A stretch of DNA of 64,000 nucleotides from Neopusillimonas maritima (GTDB lineage Bacteria > Pseudomonadota > Gammaproteobacteria > Burkholderiales > Burkholderiaceae_B): NCBI RefSeq assembly GCF_003576595.1, contig NZ_NQOU01000005.1:1-64000 (forward strand), in the 5' to 3' direction. The notes under the pieces are model-generated. The model saw nothing but the letters and a program-made list of their open reading frames with translations, was not told the origin of the DNA and made no database searches. Below, one piece after another: positions 627 through 11,678 of this stretch; position 1 is the first letter of the stretch; each line of letters starts with the position of its first letter. The position numbers were made by a program, and so were the translations under genes.

Positions 627-1583
627 CTACAGATCAAGCGTAAGCATTGCTGACTTAGCTCTAGAGCAGCAGGGCAGAATCTGGTTGTTAGCTGTTTTCT
701 CTGCATCCGTCAGGTATAAATCACGGTGATCAGGTTCACCTTCGATAACGCGAGTAAGACAAGTTCCGCAAACGCCCTCCTCACAAGACACGGGTATGAA
801 TACGTCATTCTCTTCCAGCACCCTTGTAATTGACTTACCCGGTGCGACATCAAGAATAGTTCCCGAACTAGCGATTTTTACCTTGAAGACTTTGTCGCCG
901 CTGGTATCGATTTCCCCTGCTCCGAAGTATTCAAAATGGATTTGGTCACTCGACCACCCGGCTTCTTTGGCTGAGTCGACGACATAGTCGATAAATCCTT
1001 TTGGGCCGCACACATAAAGATGAGTTGTTGGCGAAGGTTTAGCCATTAATGTTTTGAGATCAAGTTTCTGAGCATCATCACCGTCGTCGAAGTGGAAATG
1101 AACGCGGTCTGAAAACTCTGATGATTGAATCGTGTCCAGGAATGCAGTACGTTCACGTGACCGAGTACAGTAGTGCATTCTGAAAGCAGCATTGGTGCGA
1201 TTCAGTTGGTGTGCCATACTCAAAATCGGGGTTACACCAATACCACCAGCTAACAGCAAGCTTTGATTTGCACTAATGAGCGGAAAGTGATTTTTCGGCG
1301 TGCTAATTCTTAGTACGTCGCCCACTTTGATTTTTTTATGGATAGCGACTGAGCCCCCTCTTGACTCGGCATCTTTCAGTACAGCGATTACATAGCGGTG
1401 ACTTTCGGTGGAATCGTTCAGCAGTGAATACTGCCTAACGATTCCACCAGGCAGGTGTACGTCTATATGCGCACCCGCGGTGAAGTATGGTAGTTGTTTT
1501 CCGTCTACTTCGGCTAATTCAAGGCTGATGATATCAACGGCTTCAAAGATTTTATTGACAACAGTTACTGATAATTGATTCAT
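627..1583 (-). CDS. Phthalate-dioxygenase-reductase/VanB-type flavin and 2Fe-2S reductase
   Basis: This is a soluble electron-transfer subunit (318 aa) that takes electrons from NAD(P)H through flavin to a plant-type 2Fe-2S centre and on to a Rieske oxygenase. Three domains are visible in order. The flavin domain carries RQYSLLND near residue 50, the RxYS flavin motif. The nucleotide domain carries GGIGVTPI near 113 and VCGPKGF. The C-terminal ferredoxin has Cys at about 267, 272, 275 and 305 (C-x4-C-x2-C-x29-C). This order is that of phthalate dioxygenase reductase and vanillate demethylase VanB. It lies 96 bases downstream of livF on the same strand, so it may belong to the transporter operon. 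No oxygenase gene is present in the window, so the substrate is unknown. An aromatic or methoxylated aromatic acid is only a guess from the family. Confidence 0.87.
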   Translation of the reverse strand: MNQLSVTVVNKIFEAVDIISLELAEVDGKQLPYFTAGAHIDVHLPGGIVRQYSLLNDSTESHRYVIAVLKDAESRGGSVAIHKKIKVGDVLRISTPKNHFPLISANQSLLLAGGIGVTPILSMAHQLNRTNAAFRMHYCTRSRERTAFLDTIQSSEFSDRVHFHFDDGDDAQKLDLKTLMAKPSPTTHLYVCGPKGFIDYVVDSAKEAGWSSDQIHFEYFGAGEIDTSGDKVFKVKIASSGTILDVAPGKSITRVLEENDVFIPVSCEEGVCGTCLTRVIEGEPDHRDLYLTDAEKTANNQILPCCSRAKSAMLTLDL

Positions 1584-1679: not shown

Positions 1680-2390
1680 TCAAACGCCTAGATATTGAGT
1701 TAACAATTCAGGTTGTTGAATTAGGGCTGCACTCTGTTTTTCATGGACAACCACACCTTTCTCAAGGACAACGCAGCGGTCCGTGTTGGCCAGTACCTTG
1801 CGATAATTCCGATCAACGATCAGGGTGGCTACGCCAGTTTCACGAATCGTGCCGATAATGCGCCATATCTCGGCGATAATGAGGGGCGCTAGTCCCTCTG
1901 TTGCTTCATCAAGGATTAACACGTCCGGGTTCGTCATTAAGGCACGACCAATCGCTAGCATCTGCTGTTCACCCCCCGACAGCTGTTGTCCACCGTGCCC
2001 AAGCCGCTCTGTAAGCCTTGGAAATGTCTCTAGAACACGATCGTAGCTCCAGTCGTTGCGTTCGTTAACTCCGGGACGAGCTGCGACCAGTAGGTTTTCG
2101 CGAACATTTAGGTTTGGAAAAATACCTCTGCCTTCGGGTACATAAGCTACGCCGAGGCGTGATACTTGATGAGGTGCTGAGCGTGTGTGGTCATCACCTC
2201 GGATTTTGATTTGTCCAGAGCTAGGTCGTACATGTCCCATAAGAGTTCTGATCAATGTGCTCTTTCCCATGCCGTTTCGACCTAGTAGACCAACAGATTC
2301 ACCAGGATTAATTTTAAAATTGACATCAAACAGAATATGGCTCTCACCGTAGTGGGTGTTTAGACTTTTTGCTTCGATCAAACTGCTCAT
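1680..2390 (-). CDS. livF: LivF-type ABC transporter ATP-binding protein
   Basis: One of the two cytoplasmic ATPases of a branched-chain-amino-acid-type (HAAT family) importer, 236 aa. Walker A is GRNGMGKST (about 37-45), the signature is LSGGEQQ and Walker B is LILDEATEGLAP. The switch region reads LIVDRN. Its ATG overlaps the stop of livG by four bases (ATGA type), which suggests translational coupling. This family carries amino acids, but many members carry aromatic acids, amides or urea. The neighbouring reductase makes an aromatic acid possible here, but the sequence does not prove it. Confidence 0.93.
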   Translation of the reverse strand: MSSLIEAKSLNTHYGESHILFDVNFKINPGESVGLLGRNGMGKSTLIRTLMGHVRPSSGQIKIRGDDHTRSAPHQVSRLGVAYVPEGRGIFPNLNVRENLLVAARPGVNERNDWSYDRVLETFPRLTERLGHGGQQLSGGEQQMLAIGRALMTNPDVLILDEATEGLAPLIIAEIWRIIGTIRETGVATLIVDRNYRKVLANTDRCVVLEKGVVVHEKQSAALIQQPELLTQYLGV

Positions 2391-3136
2391 GCTTCATCCC
2401 CCAAGTAAGCTGTTTGCACATCGGGGTTATTGCGGATTTCCTCAGGTTCACCATGAGCGATTACGCATCCGTTCACCATAACGGTGATTTCGTCGGAAAT
2501 GCGAAAAACAGCATCCATGTCATGTTCGACTAGTAAGACAGCATGTTCTTTCTTTAGGTCGTTTAATAGGCCAAGCATGCGATCGGTTTCTTCTGCCCCC
2601 ATGCCAGCGAGTGGCTCATCGAGTAGGAGCACTTTGGGTCGAGTGGCGAGACACATCGCGATTTCGAGTTGGCGTTTTCCACCATGAGAAAGAAGGCCAG
2701 CTTTGCGATGGGCAAACTGTGATAAACCCGCGAGCTCCAGTGCGTGACTGGCAGCTTCATTAGTAAAGTCACATTTTGTATGTGGTGTGCCCCAATTCCA
2801 GAATTTCTGGTGCTTGGATTGCGCGGAAATTCGACAGTTTTCGTGGACTGATAAGGAGGGGAAGATTGTTGTGCGTTGATAGCTTCGTCCGAGGCCTGCT
2901 TGAGCTCGATCTGGTTGTGACCAGTCTGTTATGTCTTTATCCAACATCTTAATTTGACCCTCGTTGGGTGGGATTTCACCTGATAGCACACTGACAAGTG
3001 TGGACTTTCCCGCACCGTTCGTACCGATCACTGCATGGACAGCACCCTGATTTAGGTTGAGTGATGCGTTGTTAATGGCGATTAAGCCTCCGAAGCGTCG
3101 TGTTATGTTTTTTGCTGATAAAAGTGTTTGAGACAT
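2387..3136 (-). CDS. livG: LivG-type ABC transporter ATP-binding protein
   Basis: Second ATPase of the importer, 249 aa. It has Walker A GTNGAGKST (about 38-46), an unusual signature region LLSHGGKRQLEIAM in place of LSxGQQ, Walker B LLLDEPLAGMG and the H-loop LLVEHDMD. The C-terminal extension after the H-loop is typical of LivG and ends near YLGDEA. It starts nine bases after the stop of livM and overlaps livF by four bases, so all transporter genes appear to be one transcript read right to left. Confidence 0.93.
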   Translation of the reverse strand: MSQTLLSAKNITRRFGGLIAINNASLNLNQGAVHAVIGTNGAGKSTLVSVLSGEIPPNEGQIKMLDKDITDWSQPDRAQAGLGRSYQRTTIFPSLSVHENCRISAQSKHQKFWNWGTPHTKCDFTNEAASHALELAGLSQFAHRKAGLLSHGGKRQLEIAMCLATRPKVLLLDEPLAGMGAEETDRMLGLLNDLKKEHAVLLVEHDMDAVFRISDEITVMVNGCVIAHGEPEEIRNNPDVQTAYLGDEA

Positions 3137-3145
3137 GCCTAGACC

Positions 3146-4156
3146 TTAATGTACTGTTGCTGAGCGTACTGTTGGTGATGGTTTTTTTTTGCCACGTCTT
3201 TTACTGAGCTGTTTCGGCAGACCGATCAAACCTGTCGGCATAAGTGCCACCAGCGCGATCACGGTGAGACCAAAAGTTAGGTGCCAGTGGACGGCAAACG
3301 CGCCAAAAATTGCTTCTGATTGGAAGAGTTCTTGCAGAAAAATGAGGCCAGCTGCTCCGATCATCGCACCCCATAGTCGACTGGTCCCCCCCAGAATGAC
3401 CATGAATAGAACAATGCCCGATTGCTCCCAGCTCAGCAATTCCGGATTGACGTAGCCGTCCTTAATCGCGTACAGCACTCCTGCAAGGCCGCCAAATCCT
3501 GCCGCTACGATGTAAGCGGTGAGCTTGTAACCAAAGGTCGAATACCCGACAGCTCGCATACGCTGTTCGTTGACGTGTATACCTGTTAGCGCCGCTCCGA
3601 ACCGTGAACGCATGAGGATGGTCAGAAAACCCCAAGTAAATATCAGGCATCCGAGGGTAAAGACATAAAACGAGTAATTGCTACTGATGTCGAGAAGAAC
3701 AGCGTCTCCGATTCGTAATTCTGGGCGCGTATTCAGATAAATGCCGTCAGTACCACCCCCGAGTTTGGTGTCGTGAAAGACGTAGTAGGCCATTTGCGCA
3801 AATGCTAGCGTGACCATGATGAAGTACACCCCTTTGGTTTTCAGGGCTAAAGGACCTGTGATTAAGGCGTAAACCATGGCAGATATCACCGCTACAGGCA
3901 CAAGCCATAAAAGGTTGCCAGCCGCGAATTCGGGCGACAGTAGCGTGACTGCGTAAGCAGAAACTCCAAAAAAAGCGGCGTGTCCTAGGCTGATCAAACC
4001 TGTGCATCCAACCAGTAATTGAAGGCTCAGTGCAAAAATACTGTAGATCATGACTTTGATGATCAACGTCGTGTAGTAGGCGGTTGTTATCATTGGTAAA
4101 AAGGCGATAACAATAACCAGTGTTAGCATCAAAAGAGTGCGAGATTTTGAATTCAT
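3146..4156 (-). CDS. livM: LivM-type ABC transporter permease
   Basis: Integral inner-membrane permease of the importer, 336 aa, with about eight to ten hydrophobic segments. The conserved LivM stretches are GCTGLISLGHAAFFGVSAY near residue 50 and AFAQMAYYVFHDTKLGGGTDG near 117-137. The loop AGFGGLAGVLYA precedes the FMVILGGTSRLWGAMIGA segment, the ATPase-contact region of the family. The C-terminus is short and basic (RRGKKKPSP). Six bases separate it from livH. It pairs with LivH to form the membrane channel. Confidence 0.93.
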   Translation of the reverse strand: MNSKSRTLLMLTLVIVIAFLPMITTAYYTTLIIKVMIYSIFALSLQLLVGCTGLISLGHAAFFGVSAYAVTLLSPEFAAGNLLWLVPVAVISAMVYALITGPLALKTKGVYFIMVTLAFAQMAYYVFHDTKLGGGTDGIYLNTRPELRIGDAVLLDISSNYSFYVFTLGCLIFTWGFLTILMRSRFGAALTGIHVNEQRMRAVGYSTFGYKLTAYIVAAGFGGLAGVLYAIKDGYVNPELLSWEQSGIVLFMVILGGTSRLWGAMIGAAGLIFLQELFQSEAIFGAFAVHWHLTFGLTVIALVALMPTGLIGLPKQLSKRRGKKKPSPTVRSATVH

Positions 4157-4162
4157 TTCGCA

Positions 4163-5044
4163 TCAGCCTTGTTTAAATAGCCCTTCAGGCTTGAAGAGGA
4201 GAATGGTTGCCATCATTATGTAGACGAGAACTCCGGCGACCTGAGGAAATAGAATTTGACCGAAAGTGTCGACAAATCCAATCAACATTGCGGCGATAAA
4301 GGCACCCTTAATCGAGCCGATGCCACCGATGACCACGACGACAAAGCAGATAATGATGACGGCATTCCCCATGCCTGGATACACCGATGAAACTGGTGCT
4401 GCAATTGCCCCCGCTAGTGCAGCCAAAGCAACGCCAAGTGCAAATACGACACGAAACAGTTGATTGATATCGATGCCCAGTGAGTTGATCATTTCCCGAT
4501 TGCTGGCGCCGGCTCGGATCATCATGCCTAGTCGGGTGCGTGACAGTAGCCAATACATGAAGACAGCAACAATGATGCAAACCGCCGATATGAAAAGTCG
4601 GTAAGTTGGGTATGTCATGAGATCGCCAAGTTGAATAGAACCGCTGAGCCATTCTGGGGCCGATACGCCGTGTACATCGTTGTCGATGATAATGCTGCGT
4701 AGTTCCTCAAAAACCAAAATCAGCCCATAGGTCATAAGGACCTGTTGAAGGTGGTCGCGTGTGTACAGATAGCTGTAGAAGGCCCACTCAAGAAAATAGC
4801 CGAGTAGGGCAGCCAGAACAATGCAGACCAGAACAGTAGTAATGAAGCCCCCTCCCAGGTACTGCGCCACCAAAGGCTGGAGAGCAAAGGCCATATAGGC
4901 ACCGATCATGTAGAAACTACCATGTGCCAGGTTAATAATGCCCATGATGCCGAAGATAAGTGTCAGTCCACTGGCTACTAAAAATAGCAGTAATCCATAT
5001 TGGACAGCGTTCAGGCACTGAATAAGGTAAGTGGTCACGTCCAC
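4163..5044 (-). CDS. livH: LivH-type ABC transporter permease
   Basis: Integral membrane permease, about 293 aa. The family's N-terminal motif GLLLFLVASGLTLIFGIMG is followed by INLAHGSFYMIGAY. The open frame extends upstream to 5152, but that would overlap the binding-protein gene and adds 36 residues without family likeness. I prefer the GTG at 5044-5042, which has an AAAAGGAA Shine-Dalgarno five bases in front; a second GTG lies two codons downstream. The C-terminus ends in ATILLFKPEGLFKQG, the usual LivH ending. It lies 76 bases downstream of the binding-protein gene. Confidence 0.9.
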   Translation of the reverse strand: MDVTTYLIQCLNAVQYGLLLFLVASGLTLIFGIMGIINLAHGSFYMIGAYMAFALQPLVAQYLGGGFITTVLVCIVLAALLGYFLEWAFYSYLYTRDHLQQVLMTYGLILVFEELRSIIIDNDVHGVSAPEWLSGSIQLGDLMTYPTYRLFISAVCIIVAVFMYWLLSRTRLGMMIRAGASNREMINSLGIDINQLFRVVFALGVALAALAGAIAAPVSSVYPGMGNAVIIICFVVVVIGGIGSIKGAFIAAMLIGFVDTFGQILFPQVAGVLVYIMMATILLFKPEGLFKQG

Positions 5045-5120
5045 AACCGTTCCTTTTCTAAAGATTTGTGCCTCTTTCTTGACGATAAATTGATCATTGT
5101 CAAAAAAGAGGCGAGACAAA

Positions 5121-6275
5121 TTAGAGTTTGCAGCCCCGTGCTGGGTCGGCAAGTTTCTCTACAGCAACTTTAACGATTTCATTTTTGCCATTCTTTACTT
5201 GGCGAAGATAAATATCTTGGATCGGATTGCCTGCAGCGGACAACTTGAATTGACCTCGGGGGCTGTCGACCACGGCGTTGCTCATAGCTTCATGCATTTG
5301 GTCGCGTTTCTTAATGTCGCCACCAACTGCTTTCAGGCCTGCGTCAAGTAACTGCGCCGCGTCGTAACCTTGCATCGCGTATACGTCAATCGGATTGGAT
5401 GGATAGCGCTTCGAGAAACTAGCGCGGAAAGCATTGTCACGTGGAGTGTTTAAGTTGTCGGCGTAATGAAGCGTTGTTAAAAGGCCATCAGCTGAAGCAC
5501 CTTGGGCTTCGAGAGTACCGTCGGTTAAGAAGCCGCTACCTAATAGTGGAATATTGGCAGCTAGGTTTGCGCCGGCATAATCTTGTACAAATTTGACTGC
5601 GCCACTACCCGCAAAGAAGGCATAAACAACGTCAGGCTTAATTGACGCAATTTCCGTCAATAGAGGCTGGAACTCAACGGTAGGGAAGGGTACAGTCAGG
5701 TGTCTGATTACTTTTCCGCCTTTCTCTTCAAAAGCCTCTTTGAATCCATCGGTCGATTCTTGGCCGGCAGCGTAGTTCCAAGTGATTGTGACGGCAGTCT
5801 TGTAACCCTTATCGATAGCGACCGGTCCCATCGCGTAGCCTGGTTGCCAATTTGAAAATGATGTTCGGAATACACCTTTGCTGCACAGTGGGCCAGTAAT
5901 CGCATCAGCACCTGCATTAGGAATAATTAGTGTTACACCCGCATCCTTAGCAGCCTTTGCTAAGGCCATTGCTACGCCTGAGTGCACCGACCCGACCAGC
6001 ACATCAACTTGGTCTCGTTTAATGAGTCTATTTGCATTGTCAGGACCTTTTGATGGATTGGATTCGTCATCGACCCGAAAGTACTGGATATCTTGACCTG
6101 CCAGTTTTCCACCTTGCTCTTCAACATAAAGCTTGAAGGCATTTTCGATCGTTTGTCCGATTGTTCCGTAAGCGCCACTGTACGGAAGCATGAAACCAAC
6201 CTTTACAGTTGCTGAAGCTTGAGCGCAAGCGACTGTAAAGAGCGTTGCCGTGGCAAGAATCTTCAATTTCTTCAT
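5121..6275 (-). CDS. Periplasmic substrate-binding protein of Liv-type ABC transporter
   Basis: Periplasmic binding protein of the type I fold (Leu/Ile/Val-binding family, Peripla_BP_6), 384 aa. A signal peptide covers roughly residues 1-22 (KKLKILATATLFTVACAQASA), followed by VKVGFMLPYSGAYGTIG, the usual first strand and ligand loop. Also visible are NRLIKRDQVDVLVGSVHSG and GYDAAQLLDAGLKAVGG. It is the first gene of the minus-strand operon and gives it its specificity. A palindrome and a possible promoter lie directly upstream (6294-6343), and CTGGAG sits before the ATG as ribosome binding site. The ligand cannot be read from sequence: members bind amino acids, amides or aromatic acids. Confidence 0.92.
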   Translation of the reverse strand: MKKLKILATATLFTVACAQASATVKVGFMLPYSGAYGTIGQTIENAFKLYVEEQGGKLAGQDIQYFRVDDESNPSKGPDNANRLIKRDQVDVLVGSVHSGVAMALAKAAKDAGVTLIIPNAGADAITGPLCSKGVFRTSFSNWQPGYAMGPVAIDKGYKTAVTITWNYAAGQESTDGFKEAFEEKGGKVIRHLTVPFPTVEFQPLLTEIASIKPDVVYAFFAGSGAVKFVQDYAGANLAANIPLLGSGFLTDGTLEAQGASADGLLTTLHYADNLNTPRDNAFRASFSKRYPSNPIDVYAMQGYDAAQLLDAGLKAVGGDIKKRDQMHEAMSNAVVDSPRGQFKLSAAGNPIQDIYLRQVKNGKNEIVKVAVEKLADPARGCKL

Positions 6276-7244: not shown

Positions 7245-7394
7245 CTAACAAACTTGATCCATAAGATCGTTGTTGCTGAGTCCCACCAGGGGTTTGCCTT
7301 CGAGGCTTGGGCGCATCACGCGCTCGCAGGAGCAGTAAAAGCTGTTGCCGTCGATCAGGGCGATACGCTGCTGGTGTGTGGTCGAAACGTCCAT
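7245..7394 (-). pseudogene. umuC: umuC 5' fragment (DNA polymerase V catalytic subunit), truncated
   Basis: The ATG at 7394 opens a frame of 49 codons. Residues 11-43 read IALIDGNSFYCSCERVMRPS and onward to GLSNND, which is the N-terminal palm segment of Y-family polymerase UmuC, including the first catalytic Asp (IDGNSFY). Likeness stops abruptly after SNND, near 7268, and a TAG follows at 7247-7245. About nine tenths of the roughly 420-residue protein is missing. The start overlaps the end of umuD by 40 bases on the same strand, so this was a umuDC operon. The breakpoint lies just past the istA remnant, which suggests that a deletion joined the two. Confidence 0.85.
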
Positions 7395-7892: not shown

Positions 7893-9107
7893 CTAACCTG
7901 ACATCATTGGTGCGAGCTTCTTGGCAAGCAGCTCCAAAGCTTCCCTTCGTTCATTGAAGTAGTCATGACGATTGTAAATGCCCTCTACACCTTTGAGTTT
8001 ATGGTTCAAGCACCGCTCTGCCACGTGCCCAGGAACGCCTAGCGAAGCTAACAAGCTCCGGCAGGTGCGTCGTAAGTCGTGAACGGTGAAATGCGCCAGA
8101 TCTTCCATTTTGTTTTCAGGTTGCACATCTTTGCCAGGGTCCCTACCAAACAGTTTGCATATCGCCCGATTCAGTGTGTCTTTACCCATGTGTGGCATTT
8201 TGCTCGACCGCCTATTTGGGAAAACATAGTCAGACCCAAATGCACGCACTTTAAGCTCGTTTAGCCACTGAATGGCTAAGTCAGGTAATGGGATGTCAAT
8301 GGCAATACCCGACTTGCTTCGTTCTTTGGGCAGGTACCAAACCTTTTCGTTCAGGTCGAATTCGCTCCACTTTGCTTCCGTTAGCTCGCCTTTTCTGACG
8401 CCCAACAAGACTAAAAGCCCACAGGCCAAGTAGTTTTCCCGGGTAAAGCTAGTTGCTTCTTCTCTGAACTTCTTGAACGCAAATGTAAGCTCTTCGAAGC
8501 TCAGGGCTCTATCTCTGCTTTTTTCTATACCGCCAGCATCGTCTACCGAAAAGGCAAAAGCAGGGTTGCTGGAAACGATGTCTAGTTTGATGGCGTGGTT
8601 AAACATCTGCTTGCAGTACAGCAACGCATCGTTGGCAATCGTTGGCCTGCCGCTTTCCGTAATGTTACGCAGAATCTGCCTGATATCGCGCCCCGTAACA
8701 GCCGCTGGTTGTATTTGCCCAATGACTGGGGCGATGTCTTTTGTGTAGACCCGGAAGGGGATGTGGTGGTGCTTCAGGCGCTTTTTATTGCCTTCGTGCC
8801 AGTCCTTGAAAAGGTCATCGACGCAGTTGATCTCGCCATAACTGGCTCTCTTCTTTGCAACGAGGGGGTCAAGACCCTCTCGGAGTTGCTTCATCTGCAA
8901 AGCCGCCGCCACTCGGGCATCTGCAAGCGAAAGGTCGTCCACCTTGCCTAGAGTCATTTCTTTGCGCTTTGCGTTGGATGTGTAACGCAACATCCAGTAC
9001 GCACGACCAACTTTGGGAACGACAAGGTAAAGGCCATTGCCATCGGCGAACCGTCCGGGCTCCCCCCTAATTCGTGCGCTGACGGCCTTGCTGGTAAGTT
9101 CTGCCAT
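7893..9107 (-). CDS. P4-type tyrosine recombinase (island integrase)
   Basis: Site-specific recombinase of the P4/DUF4102 type, 404 aa. The N-terminal arm-binding domain reads RFADGNGLYLVVPKVGRAYW. It is followed by a SAM-like core domain and a catalytic domain with Arg about 238 (GVRKGELT), His 343 and Arg 346 (HDLRRT), His 369 (NHKLKG) and the nucleophile Tyr 378 (IYNRHDY). All catalytic residues are present, so the enzyme is probably active. The ATG at 9107 is preferred over 9119 because GGAGG stands five bases before it. It is read away from yicC, whose 3' end lies 177 bases upstream. Integrases in this position drive insertion of mobilizable islands into yicC. Confidence 0.93.
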   Translation of the reverse strand: MAELTSKAVSARIRGEPGRFADGNGLYLVVPKVGRAYWMLRYTSNAKRKEMTLGKVDDLSLADARVAAALQMKQLREGLDPLVAKKRASYGEINCVDDLFKDWHEGNKKRLKHHHIPFRVYTKDIAPVIGQIQPAAVTGRDIRQILRNITESGRPTIANDALLYCKQMFNHAIKLDIVSSNPAFAFSVDDAGGIEKSRDRALSFEELTFAFKKFREEATSFTRENYLACGLLVLLGVRKGELTEAKWSEFDLNEKVWYLPKERSKSGIAIDIPLPDLAIQWLNELKVRAFGSDYVFPNRRSSKMPHMGKDTLNRAICKLFGRDPGKDVQPENKMEDLAHFTVHDLRRTCRSLLASLGVPGHVAERCLNHKLKGVEGIYNRHDYFNERREALELLAKKLAPMMSG

Positions 9108-9122
9108 AACCCCCTCCAAATG

Positions 9123-9200
9123 TACCCACCACCAGGCTTGGTGGGTATTACATCATACTCACCATTATACCCACCGATTTAGACTTGATTCTGGTGGGTA
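9123..9200. repeat. Four TACCCACCR motifs upstream of the integrase
   Basis: TACCCACCA occurs at 9123-9131 and its reverse complement at 9139-9147. TACCCACCG follows at 9168-9176 and TGGTGGGTA at 9192-9200. The four 9-base units form two inverted pairs in the 176 bases between integrase and yicC. Their number, size and place fit recombinase arm-type sites or sites for an excision factor. Binding is inferred only. Confidence 0.6.
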
Positions 9201-9283
9201 TCAGTAGACACCCATGGAGTTTGTTTTTTATATAAACTATTGATTTTATTTGTTATGTTGATATAGGTTGACATCGATTTACA

Positions 9284-10225
9284 TCACTCAATATTCTGGG
9301 CCTGCTCGCGCATTTGCTCAATAAGCAATTTCAAATCAATGGCCGCGCGCGTAACGCTAATGCCCGCCGCTTTCGAGCCCAGGGTGTTGGCTTCACGGTT
9401 CATTTCCTGAAATAGGAAGTCCAGCCGTTTCCCGGTGCTGCCTTTATTTCGCCGGGCGTTATTAGCCGGTGCTTCGGATTCGTCACCGGCCAATAATTCA
9501 CGCAATTCCGTTAAATGTGATTGCAGGCGGGTGAGTTCTTCGGCAACATCGATTCGTAAAGAAAACAGTGCGCTTTCCTGTGCGATACGGGCGGTAAGTT
9601 CTTCGCCGCTAATATTGGTGAAACCGTTGGGGTTGGCATTTTCCAGCGTTTCACGCAGCTTGCCGGTGAGCTTTTGGCGGTGTTCGTCCAGTAACTGGGG
9701 CAACACATGGCCAACACTTTCCACAATTTCATTAATCTGGTCGGCGCACTCCAGCAGCATGGTGGCCAAACGAGTCCCTTCACGTTCGCGGTTGGCCTGC
9801 ATGTCGGACAGCGCCTGGTGTAAGGCTTGTTGTGCCAGCGTGACCCAGAAGTCGGGGGCCGTTTCTTCAGTGTCCTGTCCCGACGCGCCTTTAATTAAAT
9901 CAGTTAAAGAGGGTGCCCCTGTGTCGGGTAAAACCTGGCGTGCCAAACGCAGCTGTTCAGCCACTTTTTTCACGTACTCGTGGTCCAGTTTATCCATAGG
10001 GTCGGTGCGTTGGCGACTATAGGACAGCCGGATTTCGACCTTGCCGCGTGACAAAGTACGGGCAATTTGTTCCCGCAAGTGTGTTTCCACCACACGTAAC
10101 TCGTCGGGCAGACGGAAATTGATGTCCAGGTAGCGGCTATTGACACTGCGTACTTCCAGCGTCACGAAGCCGTCAGGGCCTTCTGCGCGGGCGGTGCCGT
10201 AGGCTGTCATGCTGCGAATAGTCAT
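9284..10225 (-). CDS. yicC: YicC family endoribonuclease
   Basis: Cytoplasmic YicC-like protein, 313 aa; the E. coli protein, somewhat shorter, has been shown to be an endoribonuclease acting on small RNA. The N-terminal domain begins IRSMTAYGTARAEGPDGF and contains VRSVNSRYLDINFRLPDELR. The C-terminal domain holds GKRLDFLFQEMNREANTLGSK and ends IEQMREQAQNIE, the conserved ending. The 3' end is therefore intact even though an integrase sits just beyond it, as expected for elements that restore the gene on insertion. It is divergent from rph, with 92 bases between the starts. Confidence 0.95.
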   Translation of the reverse strand: MTIRSMTAYGTARAEGPDGFVTLEVRSVNSRYLDINFRLPDELRVVETHLREQIARTLSRGKVEIRLSYSRQRTDPMDKLDHEYVKKVAEQLRLARQVLPDTGAPSLTDLIKGASGQDTEETAPDFWVTLAQQALHQALSDMQANREREGTRLATMLLECADQINEIVESVGHVLPQLLDEHRQKLTGKLRETLENANPNGFTNISGEELTARIAQESALFSLRIDVAEELTRLQSHLTELRELLAGDESEAPANNARRNKGSTGKRLDFLFQEMNREANTLGSKAAGISVTRAAIDLKLLIEQMREQAQNIE

Positions 10226-11075: not shown

Positions 11076-11678
11076 GTGAGAAAAGTTGTTCTGGCTTCAA
11101 ATAACGCGGGAAAATTGCGCGAGTTTGATTCTTTGTTGGCACCGAAAGGGTGGACACTGGTGCCGCAGGGTGAATTGGGTGTGCCCGAAGCACCCGAGCC
11201 TCACCTTACATTCGTGGAAAATGCGCTGGCAAAGGCGCGCCACGCTTGCGAATTTACGGGCTTGCCGGCATTAGCCGACGATTCGGGGCTGTGTGTATCT
11301 GCGTTGAATGGTGCGCCTGGTGTTTATTCAGCACGCTTCGCCGCAATGAATGGGGGGGAAAAGTCGGATCAGGCGAACAACCTCTACCTGCAGCAGCAGC
11401 TTAAGGGCGTTACAGACCGCCGGGCGCATTACGTAGCGGTGCTTGTTTTCATGCGTGCCGTCAACGATCCTCAGCCTGTTATTGCGCAAGCGCAATGGCA
11501 CGGCGAAATCATTTCCGAACCTATAGGAACAAACGGTTTCGGCTATGACCCTTATTTTTATGTGCCCCAATTCAATAAAACCGTAGCGCAACTGGAGCCG
11601 GGCGAAAAGAATGCGAATAGCCATCGCGCACAGGCATTGCAGTTACTGGTTGGGCAACTTGGCGGTCATTCAATTTAA
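11076..11678 (+). CDS. rdgB: RdgB/HAM1 non-canonical purine NTP pyrophosphatase
   Basis: Hydrolyses ITP, dITP and XTP to the monophosphates and keeps deaminated purines out of DNA and RNA. About 200 aa. Motifs: VVLASNNAGKLREF (substrate loop), ALADDSGLCVSALNGAPGVYSAR with the catalytic Asp, and GTNGFGYDPYF. The GTG at 11076 gives the usual N-terminus and has a GGGCGG upstream. An earlier in-frame GTG at 11058 would overlap the rph stop. The stop TAA shares one base with the hemW ATG. Confidence 0.95.
   Translation: MRKVVLASNNAGKLREFDSLLAPKGWTLVPQGELGVPEAPEPHLTFVENALAKARHACEFTGLPALADDSGLCVSALNGAPGVYSARFAAMNGGEKSDQANNLYLQQQLKGVTDRRAHYVAVLVFMRAVNDPQPVIAQAQWHGEIISEPIGTNGFGYDPYFYVPQFNKTVAQLEPGEKNANSHRAQALQLLVGQLGGHSI

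Follow-up and report, generated by a model that had tools for sequence, protein, structure and literature searches.

The window analysed here comprises the first 64 kb of contig C22 of a 3.25 Mb genome in 26 contigs (handle G000), whose nearest named relatives in the analysis are Pusillimonas sp. T2 and Pusillimonas minor YC-7-48 (G001 and G002). It contains a complete yicC gene and, past the 3′ end of yicC, an integrase gene on the same strand that is read away from it (Table 1). The integrase is a tyrosine recombinase; translated from its ATG, the reading frame encodes 404 amino acids with no internal stops, and the Arm-DNA-bind_3, Phage_int_M and Phage_integrase domains all score above the Pfam cut-offs. 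An earlier, sequence-only reading of the locus had described both an intact yicC 3′ end and an intact recombinase in this orientation, and the reading frames and domains bear it out on both counts; its spacer of 177 bases is correctly placed past the end of yicC, although the exact length is 176 bp (9108–9283). A tRNA as the integration target is ruled out by the absence of tRNA from the window.

Table 1. Features of the yicC locus and of the DNA to its left, as positions in the 64-kb window.
Feature	Position	Strand	Basis or remark
yicC, target gene	9284..10225	-	Complete, reading frame intact; Pfam YicC-like_N and YicC-like_C
Tyrosine recombinase (integrase), 404 aa	7893..9107	-	ORF from 9119; ATG at 9107
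att core CAGGCCCAG (attL), inside yicC	9296..9304	-	Common to attL/attR of G003, G008 and the A. faecalis element
Last three codons and stop of yicC, predicted to be supplied by the element	9284..9295	-	attL/attR of G003; attL of A. faecalis
Five octamers GGTGRGTA, candidate integrase arm sites	9123..9200	both	Five of the six copies in the window: 9123-9130 (-), 9140-9147 (+), 9156-9163 (-), 9168-9175 (-), 9193-9200 (+)
umuD, complete, 144 aa	7355..7789	-	Peptidase_S24 and NF007621 above cut-off
umuC 5′ fragment, codons 1-43	7266..7394	-	Match to UmuC of Pusillimonas sp. T2
ABC transporter cluster, branched-chain-amino-acid type, five ORFs (cargo)	1680..6275	-	ORF list and family search
FAD/NAD/2Fe-2S reductase (cargo)	627..1583	-	Family search
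IS3-type transposase fragment, contig edge	89..409	+	rve_3 match; NF033516 below its cut-off

To the left of the integrase lies the patchwork of IS remnants, ABC transporter and reductase that the sequence-only reading had described. Within the ABC transporter cluster a substrate-binding protein and one ATPase are supported by the family search, and the remaining three reading frames we take, from their sequence, to belong with them. The reductase is possibly the partner of Rieske oxygenases encoded on contig C5 of the same genome. The claim that umuDC is truncated here holds for umuC and fails for umuD. In Pusillimonas sp. T2 both genes are whole after the integrase, with a umuC of 437 amino acids at the corresponding place; umuC stops after codon 43 in the window's genome and in G003, a one-contig genome of the same genus. 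G003 has a C-terminal piece of umuC 21 kb beyond the first, and between the two are an ABC transporter, a reductase, Rieske oxygenases with VanA_C and LigXa_C domains, dehydrogenases and an IclR-type regulator, most of which are also present on C5 and C22 of the window's genome. A simple 21-kb insertion into umuC was considered and dropped, since the two pieces are unlike in their identity to the UmuC of T2 (97.7%, against 65.4% for the C-terminal piece) and codons 44–275 are missing. Because the pieces match T2 so unequally, no single simple insertion explains both, and the island is a mosaic, in which aromatic-catabolism and IS DNA would have come to separate the two umuC pieces in the window's lineage. 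Between the window's genome and G003 the cargo is 98.7–99.9% identical, umuD 92.9%, the integrase 98.9% and yicC 95.7%.

The boundaries of such islands are visible in relatives. In G003, whose yicC protein is 97% identical to that of the window, the two att sites are 51,338 bp apart, and the attR copy, at +51,320 from yicC, matches the 24-base core region at 19 of 24 positions. A chromosomal amidase gene begins about 45 bp past attR; the same gene is found in P. minor (at +47.3 kb) and in truncated form on contig C5 of the window's genome. Starting 2.2 kb beyond attR, G003 shows the gene order that follows yicC in G020, where yicC has no integrase. In G008, which belongs to another genus, a perfect 24-bp direct repeat has its copies 22,566 bp apart. 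Complete elements in other Alcaligenaceae measure 22.6 kb (G008), 24.4 kb (G209, where both ends lie that far apart on one contig) and 28.1 kb (Alcaligenes faecalis AU14, G101). The att sites of G003 and the repeat in G008 uphold the earlier placement of an island at the yicC 3′ end, and the comparison with integrase-less relatives that accompanied it does reveal vacant sites: at 18 of the 24 Alcaligenaceae yicC loci read, the integrase is absent, as is, by eye, arm-like DNA. The G004 locus is a remnant, with arm-like DNA and no integrase. P. minor has a left end, in which the integrase carries a stop at codon 12, and neither the attR search nor the arm-pattern search of that genome found a right end. 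Just after attR in G008, L050:5400–5560 again resembles a left arm but has no integrase, which would suit an older element once present there in tandem.

Genes at the right end in both G003 and G008 are of the DUF932, YqaJ, Gp3-like, RadC, AlpA and YagK_YfjJ types (in G008, AlpA and YagK by Pfam and the others by blastp). The G008 element (L049, L050) also encodes a type I methyltransferase and a PrrC-type anticodon nuclease that match PADLOC models, beside reading frames that by eye resemble HsdR, HsdS and Fic proteins. The G003 island has a SIR2–HerA pair with strong PADLOC matches (L045:17065–19938), a CHAT-domain protein and reading frames that by eye resemble a type III restriction-modification system. 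It also contains two inverted copies of a trio of tyrosine recombinase reading frames, at +11681 to +14924 and +34701 to +37944, which are alike across the 200 residues shown for each; we presume the arrangement to be that of RIT elements.

The core of the att site can be delimited in A. faecalis AU14, where the complete element lies some 130 kb from an unoccupied yicC (L123, L119). Its attL and attR share only CAGGCGCAG, and these 9 bp are therefore the core, for which the consensus is CAGGCSCAG. An inversion that carried the A. faecalis integrase 130 kb away from yicC was considered and dropped, as the complete element is elsewhere and yicC there is unoccupied. The element is flanked by reading frames with SNF2-related and Helicase_C domains, presumably two parts of one gene. 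In its attL the core is followed by AACATTGAGTGATG, and, since this site is not yicC, these bases belong to the element. In G003 the core is followed by AATATTGAGTGA in attL and by AACATAGAGTAA in attR, and both encode Asn-Ile-Glu-stop. The element would thus appear to supply the last three codons and the stop of yicC, so that the gene stays intact. All 11 occupied Alcaligenaceae loci (the G004 remnant included) have TGA as the stop codon, as against 4 of 18 unoccupied ones, a tally made by eye and given as raw counts that ignore kinship.

The octamer GGTGRGTA occurs six times in the 64-kb window, and five of the copies fall within 78 bp. Octamers are found at both ends of the elements, at fixed distances from the core: G003 has a pair spaced by 12 bp at +51,228 and +51,240, that is 92 and 80 bp before the attR core, and the geometry of the right-end pair in G008 is identical. 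In 143 kb of G003 such a 12-bp-spaced pair occurs twice, once at each end of the island, and it occurs in none of 50 single-base shuffles. A tandem arm pattern, GGTGRGTACANTGGTGRGTACA, was searched for with up to 2 mismatches in 268 genomes of the family, with the reversed pattern as a control, and gave 23 matches in 18 genomes compared to 1 for the control. Seventeen of these matches are element ends, including all nine of those free of mismatches, and the other six are neither left nor right ends. At the 8 left ends the core lies upstream, at −127 to −129, and at the 9 right ends downstream, at +90 to +92 (the +90 case by eye). Six of the 17 ends were new from this search, namely the right ends in G092, G203, G209, G224 and G248 and the left end in G204. 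The arm signature locates element ends even after the integrase has been lost. The ends in G204, G203, G224 and G248 (L138, L137, L140 and L142) lie in genomes that have no integrase match at E≤1e-70 and possibly represent decayed or split elements.

The far end of the window's own copy is missing. The window begins at base 1 of C22, and the far end was sought on the other contigs and in relatives. The sequence-only reading had proposed a search for a second copy of the yicC 3′ end to the left of the window and had named its absence as a result that would refute an island; in this genome no second yicC end was found at up to 3 mismatches in 23 bases, and a search for the right-arm pair gave only matches with 3 mismatches, among them the left arm itself. 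On contig C5 the truncated amidase gene runs into island DNA: it extends to base 1884, and there the alignment with G003 breaks off, 257 bp short of attR; the Pfam match of the amidase reaches profile position 383 of 445, as against 444 in G003. Nothing in the window's genome matches the 2 kb of G003 in which attR and the last island gene lie. Between the truncated amidase and the cargo, C5:1885–2758 has no match in the compared region of G003, and a 154-aa reading frame there has no Pfam match. Because C5 shows a truncated amidase running into other DNA, loss of the far end is the likelier cause of the missing attR, and a deletion that took attR together with part of the amidase gene is the simplest reading. 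With attR not found and the neighbouring amidase truncated, the window's copy is probably stranded, and excision by this route should fail; the integrase may still be active. The extent of the island in this genome is read from relatives, C5 and C22 being linked only by comparison with G003.

Close homologues of the integrase are concentrated at yicC. Within the family 11 of 268 genomes have the integrase at E≤1e-70, and 10 of the 12 hits (in 10 of the 11 genomes) adjoin yicC; in a sample of the phylum 10 of 398 genomes have it at E≤1e-60, and 10 of the 11 hits (one in each of the 10 genomes) adjoin yicC; a scan of named genomes found yicC adjoining 10 of 12 loci. The three sets overlap, and the window's own genome is in both the family and the phylum counts. 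As 10 of 12 family hits and 10 of 11 phylum hits adjoin yicC, this adjacency exceeds chance. The integrases that lie elsewhere are that of A. faecalis and second copies in G160 (shortened, and found in two of the three sets) and in G408; all three have a yicC-end-like core upstream. The integrase of G196 is shortened. At seven control loci with more distant recombinases from the same genus, the integrase matched in six and yicC in none.

Relatives of the integrase as distant as about 38% identity are likewise found at yicC, in beta- and gamma-proteobacteria alike, including E. coli. In a tree of 30 recombinases, built without MGI, Shewanella or SGI1-like reference integrases, 23 that lie at yicC and two others form one group with support of 80/66, a weak deepest node, and several branches are long. 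Two of the 25 rows of this clade have no adjacent yicC, and both fall in a 20-row crown that includes the window (18 at yicC; support 96/96); E. coli is joined at the 80/66 node. Integrases of Thiopseudomonas and of another gamma-proteobacterium nest among those of the Alcaligenaceae. The integrase DNA of the window is 97.4% identical to that of Pusillimonas sp. T2, whereas yicC is 69.8% identical, which clearly points to horizontal movement of the integrase. Identity to the right end in G003 reaches 99.1% over the final 778 bp of the A. faecalis element, as against 75% between the integrase ends, which indicates that element ends and backbones recombine. A DNA search with one such integrase matched 542 of 5,426 E. 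coli genomes (identity was 60–80% in 537 of 544 records), and the integrase is directly 3′ of yicC in all three that were inspected (VG48B2, BKQWHE and X14-3). Plasmid records gave nine integrase matches, all below 46% identity.

These data bear on whether there is an island at all. The integrase could be a fixed, inherited relic beside yicC and the DNA to its left an unrelated patchwork, and the missing attR of the window's copy and a left flank made up of IS and cargo DNA would agree with this. A relic passed on by descent sits badly, however, with an integrase so much closer to that of T2 than yicC is and with the nesting of the Thiopseudomonas integrase, and it is already contradicted by complete elements in relatives, both att ends being present in G003, G008, G101 and G209; we give this explanation almost no credence.

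Published accounts of islands at yicC cover Vibrio, Shewanella, E. coli, Salmonella and others (PMC8409611, PMC8978831, PMC5704250). The MGIs of Vibrio (MGIVflInd1 and relatives), which use RdfM and are mobilised by SXT/R391 elements via a related oriT, resemble the window's island in having a tyrosine integrase and the yicC 3′ end as target (PMC8409611, PMC5704250). The islands considered here differ in their AlpA-type protein, their backbone and their beta-proteobacterial host. The earlier comparison with MGIs is sound as to the target, and no finding connects the island with mobilisation by SXT/R391. It is very unlikely that we are dealing with a true MGI or SGI1-like mobilizable island, moved into a beta-proteobacterium by an SXT/R391 element or an IncC plasmid: the target is shared and the integrase related, but neither MobI (PF19456), which characterises MGI-like islands of the MGIVmi1 type, nor the relaxase PF03432 has a hit in G000, G003 or G101, and the one hit for each in G008 (2654910 and 1493269, respectively) lies outside the element. 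Furthermore, the backbone proteins scanned are of the six right-end types named above, and TraG and TraN families are absent from them. The SGI1-like islands IEEcoMOD1, IESenUSA1 and IEPplInd1 lie at the yicC 3′ end with IntyicC (PMC8409611); they carry mpsA, traG, sgaC and traN, none of which is among the element proteins scanned here.

Several of the backbone proteins (AlpA, YagK_YfjJ_C, the YqaJ exonuclease and the Gp3-like protein) are of phage or CP4-57-prophage type, as would be expected of a defective prophage or a P4-like satellite, which would integrate by the same chemistry and be moved in phage particles and not conjugally. Capsid, tail and packaging families are nevertheless absent among the proteins scanned, and 50,697 phage records gave a single integrase match, at 32% identity, so that we regard a phage origin as unlikely. 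The reading we prefer is that of an integrative genomic island whose integrase-proximal end (attL) lies in the window; on the sequence comparisons it is very probable.

Other yicC-type islands share features with this one. In Shewanella, GISpuPO1 and GISspANA3 have att sites of 21 bp and GI21, which occupies another site, has att sites of 9 bp (PMC8978831); the latter are closely like the 9-bp core of the A. faecalis element. The Shewanella islands differ in their cargo of HipAB and restriction-modification genes, and are likened here by description, not by sequence. The islands of the three E. coli genomes resemble the window's in the position of the integrase and differ from it in the integrases themselves (about 40–41% identical to the window's), the repeat motif and the cargo. 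In VG48B2 (L115:946–998 and 11546–11637) the AGTACAC repeats before the integrase recur as a 12-bp-spaced near-pair, 84 bp (by eye) before a core-like CAGATTCA near dinD; the end architecture is that of the window's family and the motif is different. No full attR copy of the yicC end was found in VG48B2 at 14 or more of 20 positions, the short core-like stretch being recognised by eye.

We propose that the integrase would recombine the 9-bp core, which lies in the codons that specify the conserved C-terminus of YicC, with the core of a putative circular form of the element, cleavage taking place within the predicted core. The element would bring its own copy of Asn-Ile-Glu-stop, so that integration would swap the tail of yicC and leave the protein unchanged, and the original tail of the host gene would end up at attR. 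In the joined element the octamers would flank the core on both sides, as the five in the window and, in relatives, the pair with 12-bp spacing some 90 bp ahead of attR, and they would probably be bound by the N-terminal arm domain of the integrase. Towards the far end, G003 and G008 encode an AlpA-type protein that is the likely excision factor. In the window's copy the far end and part of the amidase gene would have been lost.

A literature search whose scope left out subscription journals and preprints found no paper on a yicC island in Betaproteobacteria, which is weak evidence of absence. The complete elements described here show that yicC serves as an island target in beta-proteobacteria as well as in gamma-proteobacteria. 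To the sequence-only reading this study adds the core, the borrowed tail, the arm geometry with the search that put it to the test, the spread across species and the loss of attR in this genome. Core and arm octamers at fixed distances provide a predicted attP, and in A. faecalis an element of this family has inserted outside yicC, where the shared core amounts to only 9 bp. The wide host range of the yicC site may be understood from the fact that the integrase would cut the most constrained codons while the element gives codons back. As the islands carry aromatic catabolism and anti-phage genes, they would spread selectable traits.

The lead with the most novelty is the set of lineage-specific motifs beside the integrase. 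In 22 of 23 loci a heptamer is repeated at least three times just upstream of the integrase, a count reached by 0–4 of 200 single-base shuffles, and the motif differs between lineages (GGTGRGTA, GTAACCA, GTCACCA, AGTACAC, GGTGCAC, GTATGAC and others); at the remaining locus, L102, no heptamer repeat was found before the integrase, whose start codon is perhaps set wrongly. We suggest, tentatively, that the yicC target has been kept across beta- and gamma-proteobacteria while the arm motif varies by lineage, such that arm specificity might act as a private key. If that is true, several islands could share one attB, even as a tandem array, and none would excise another.
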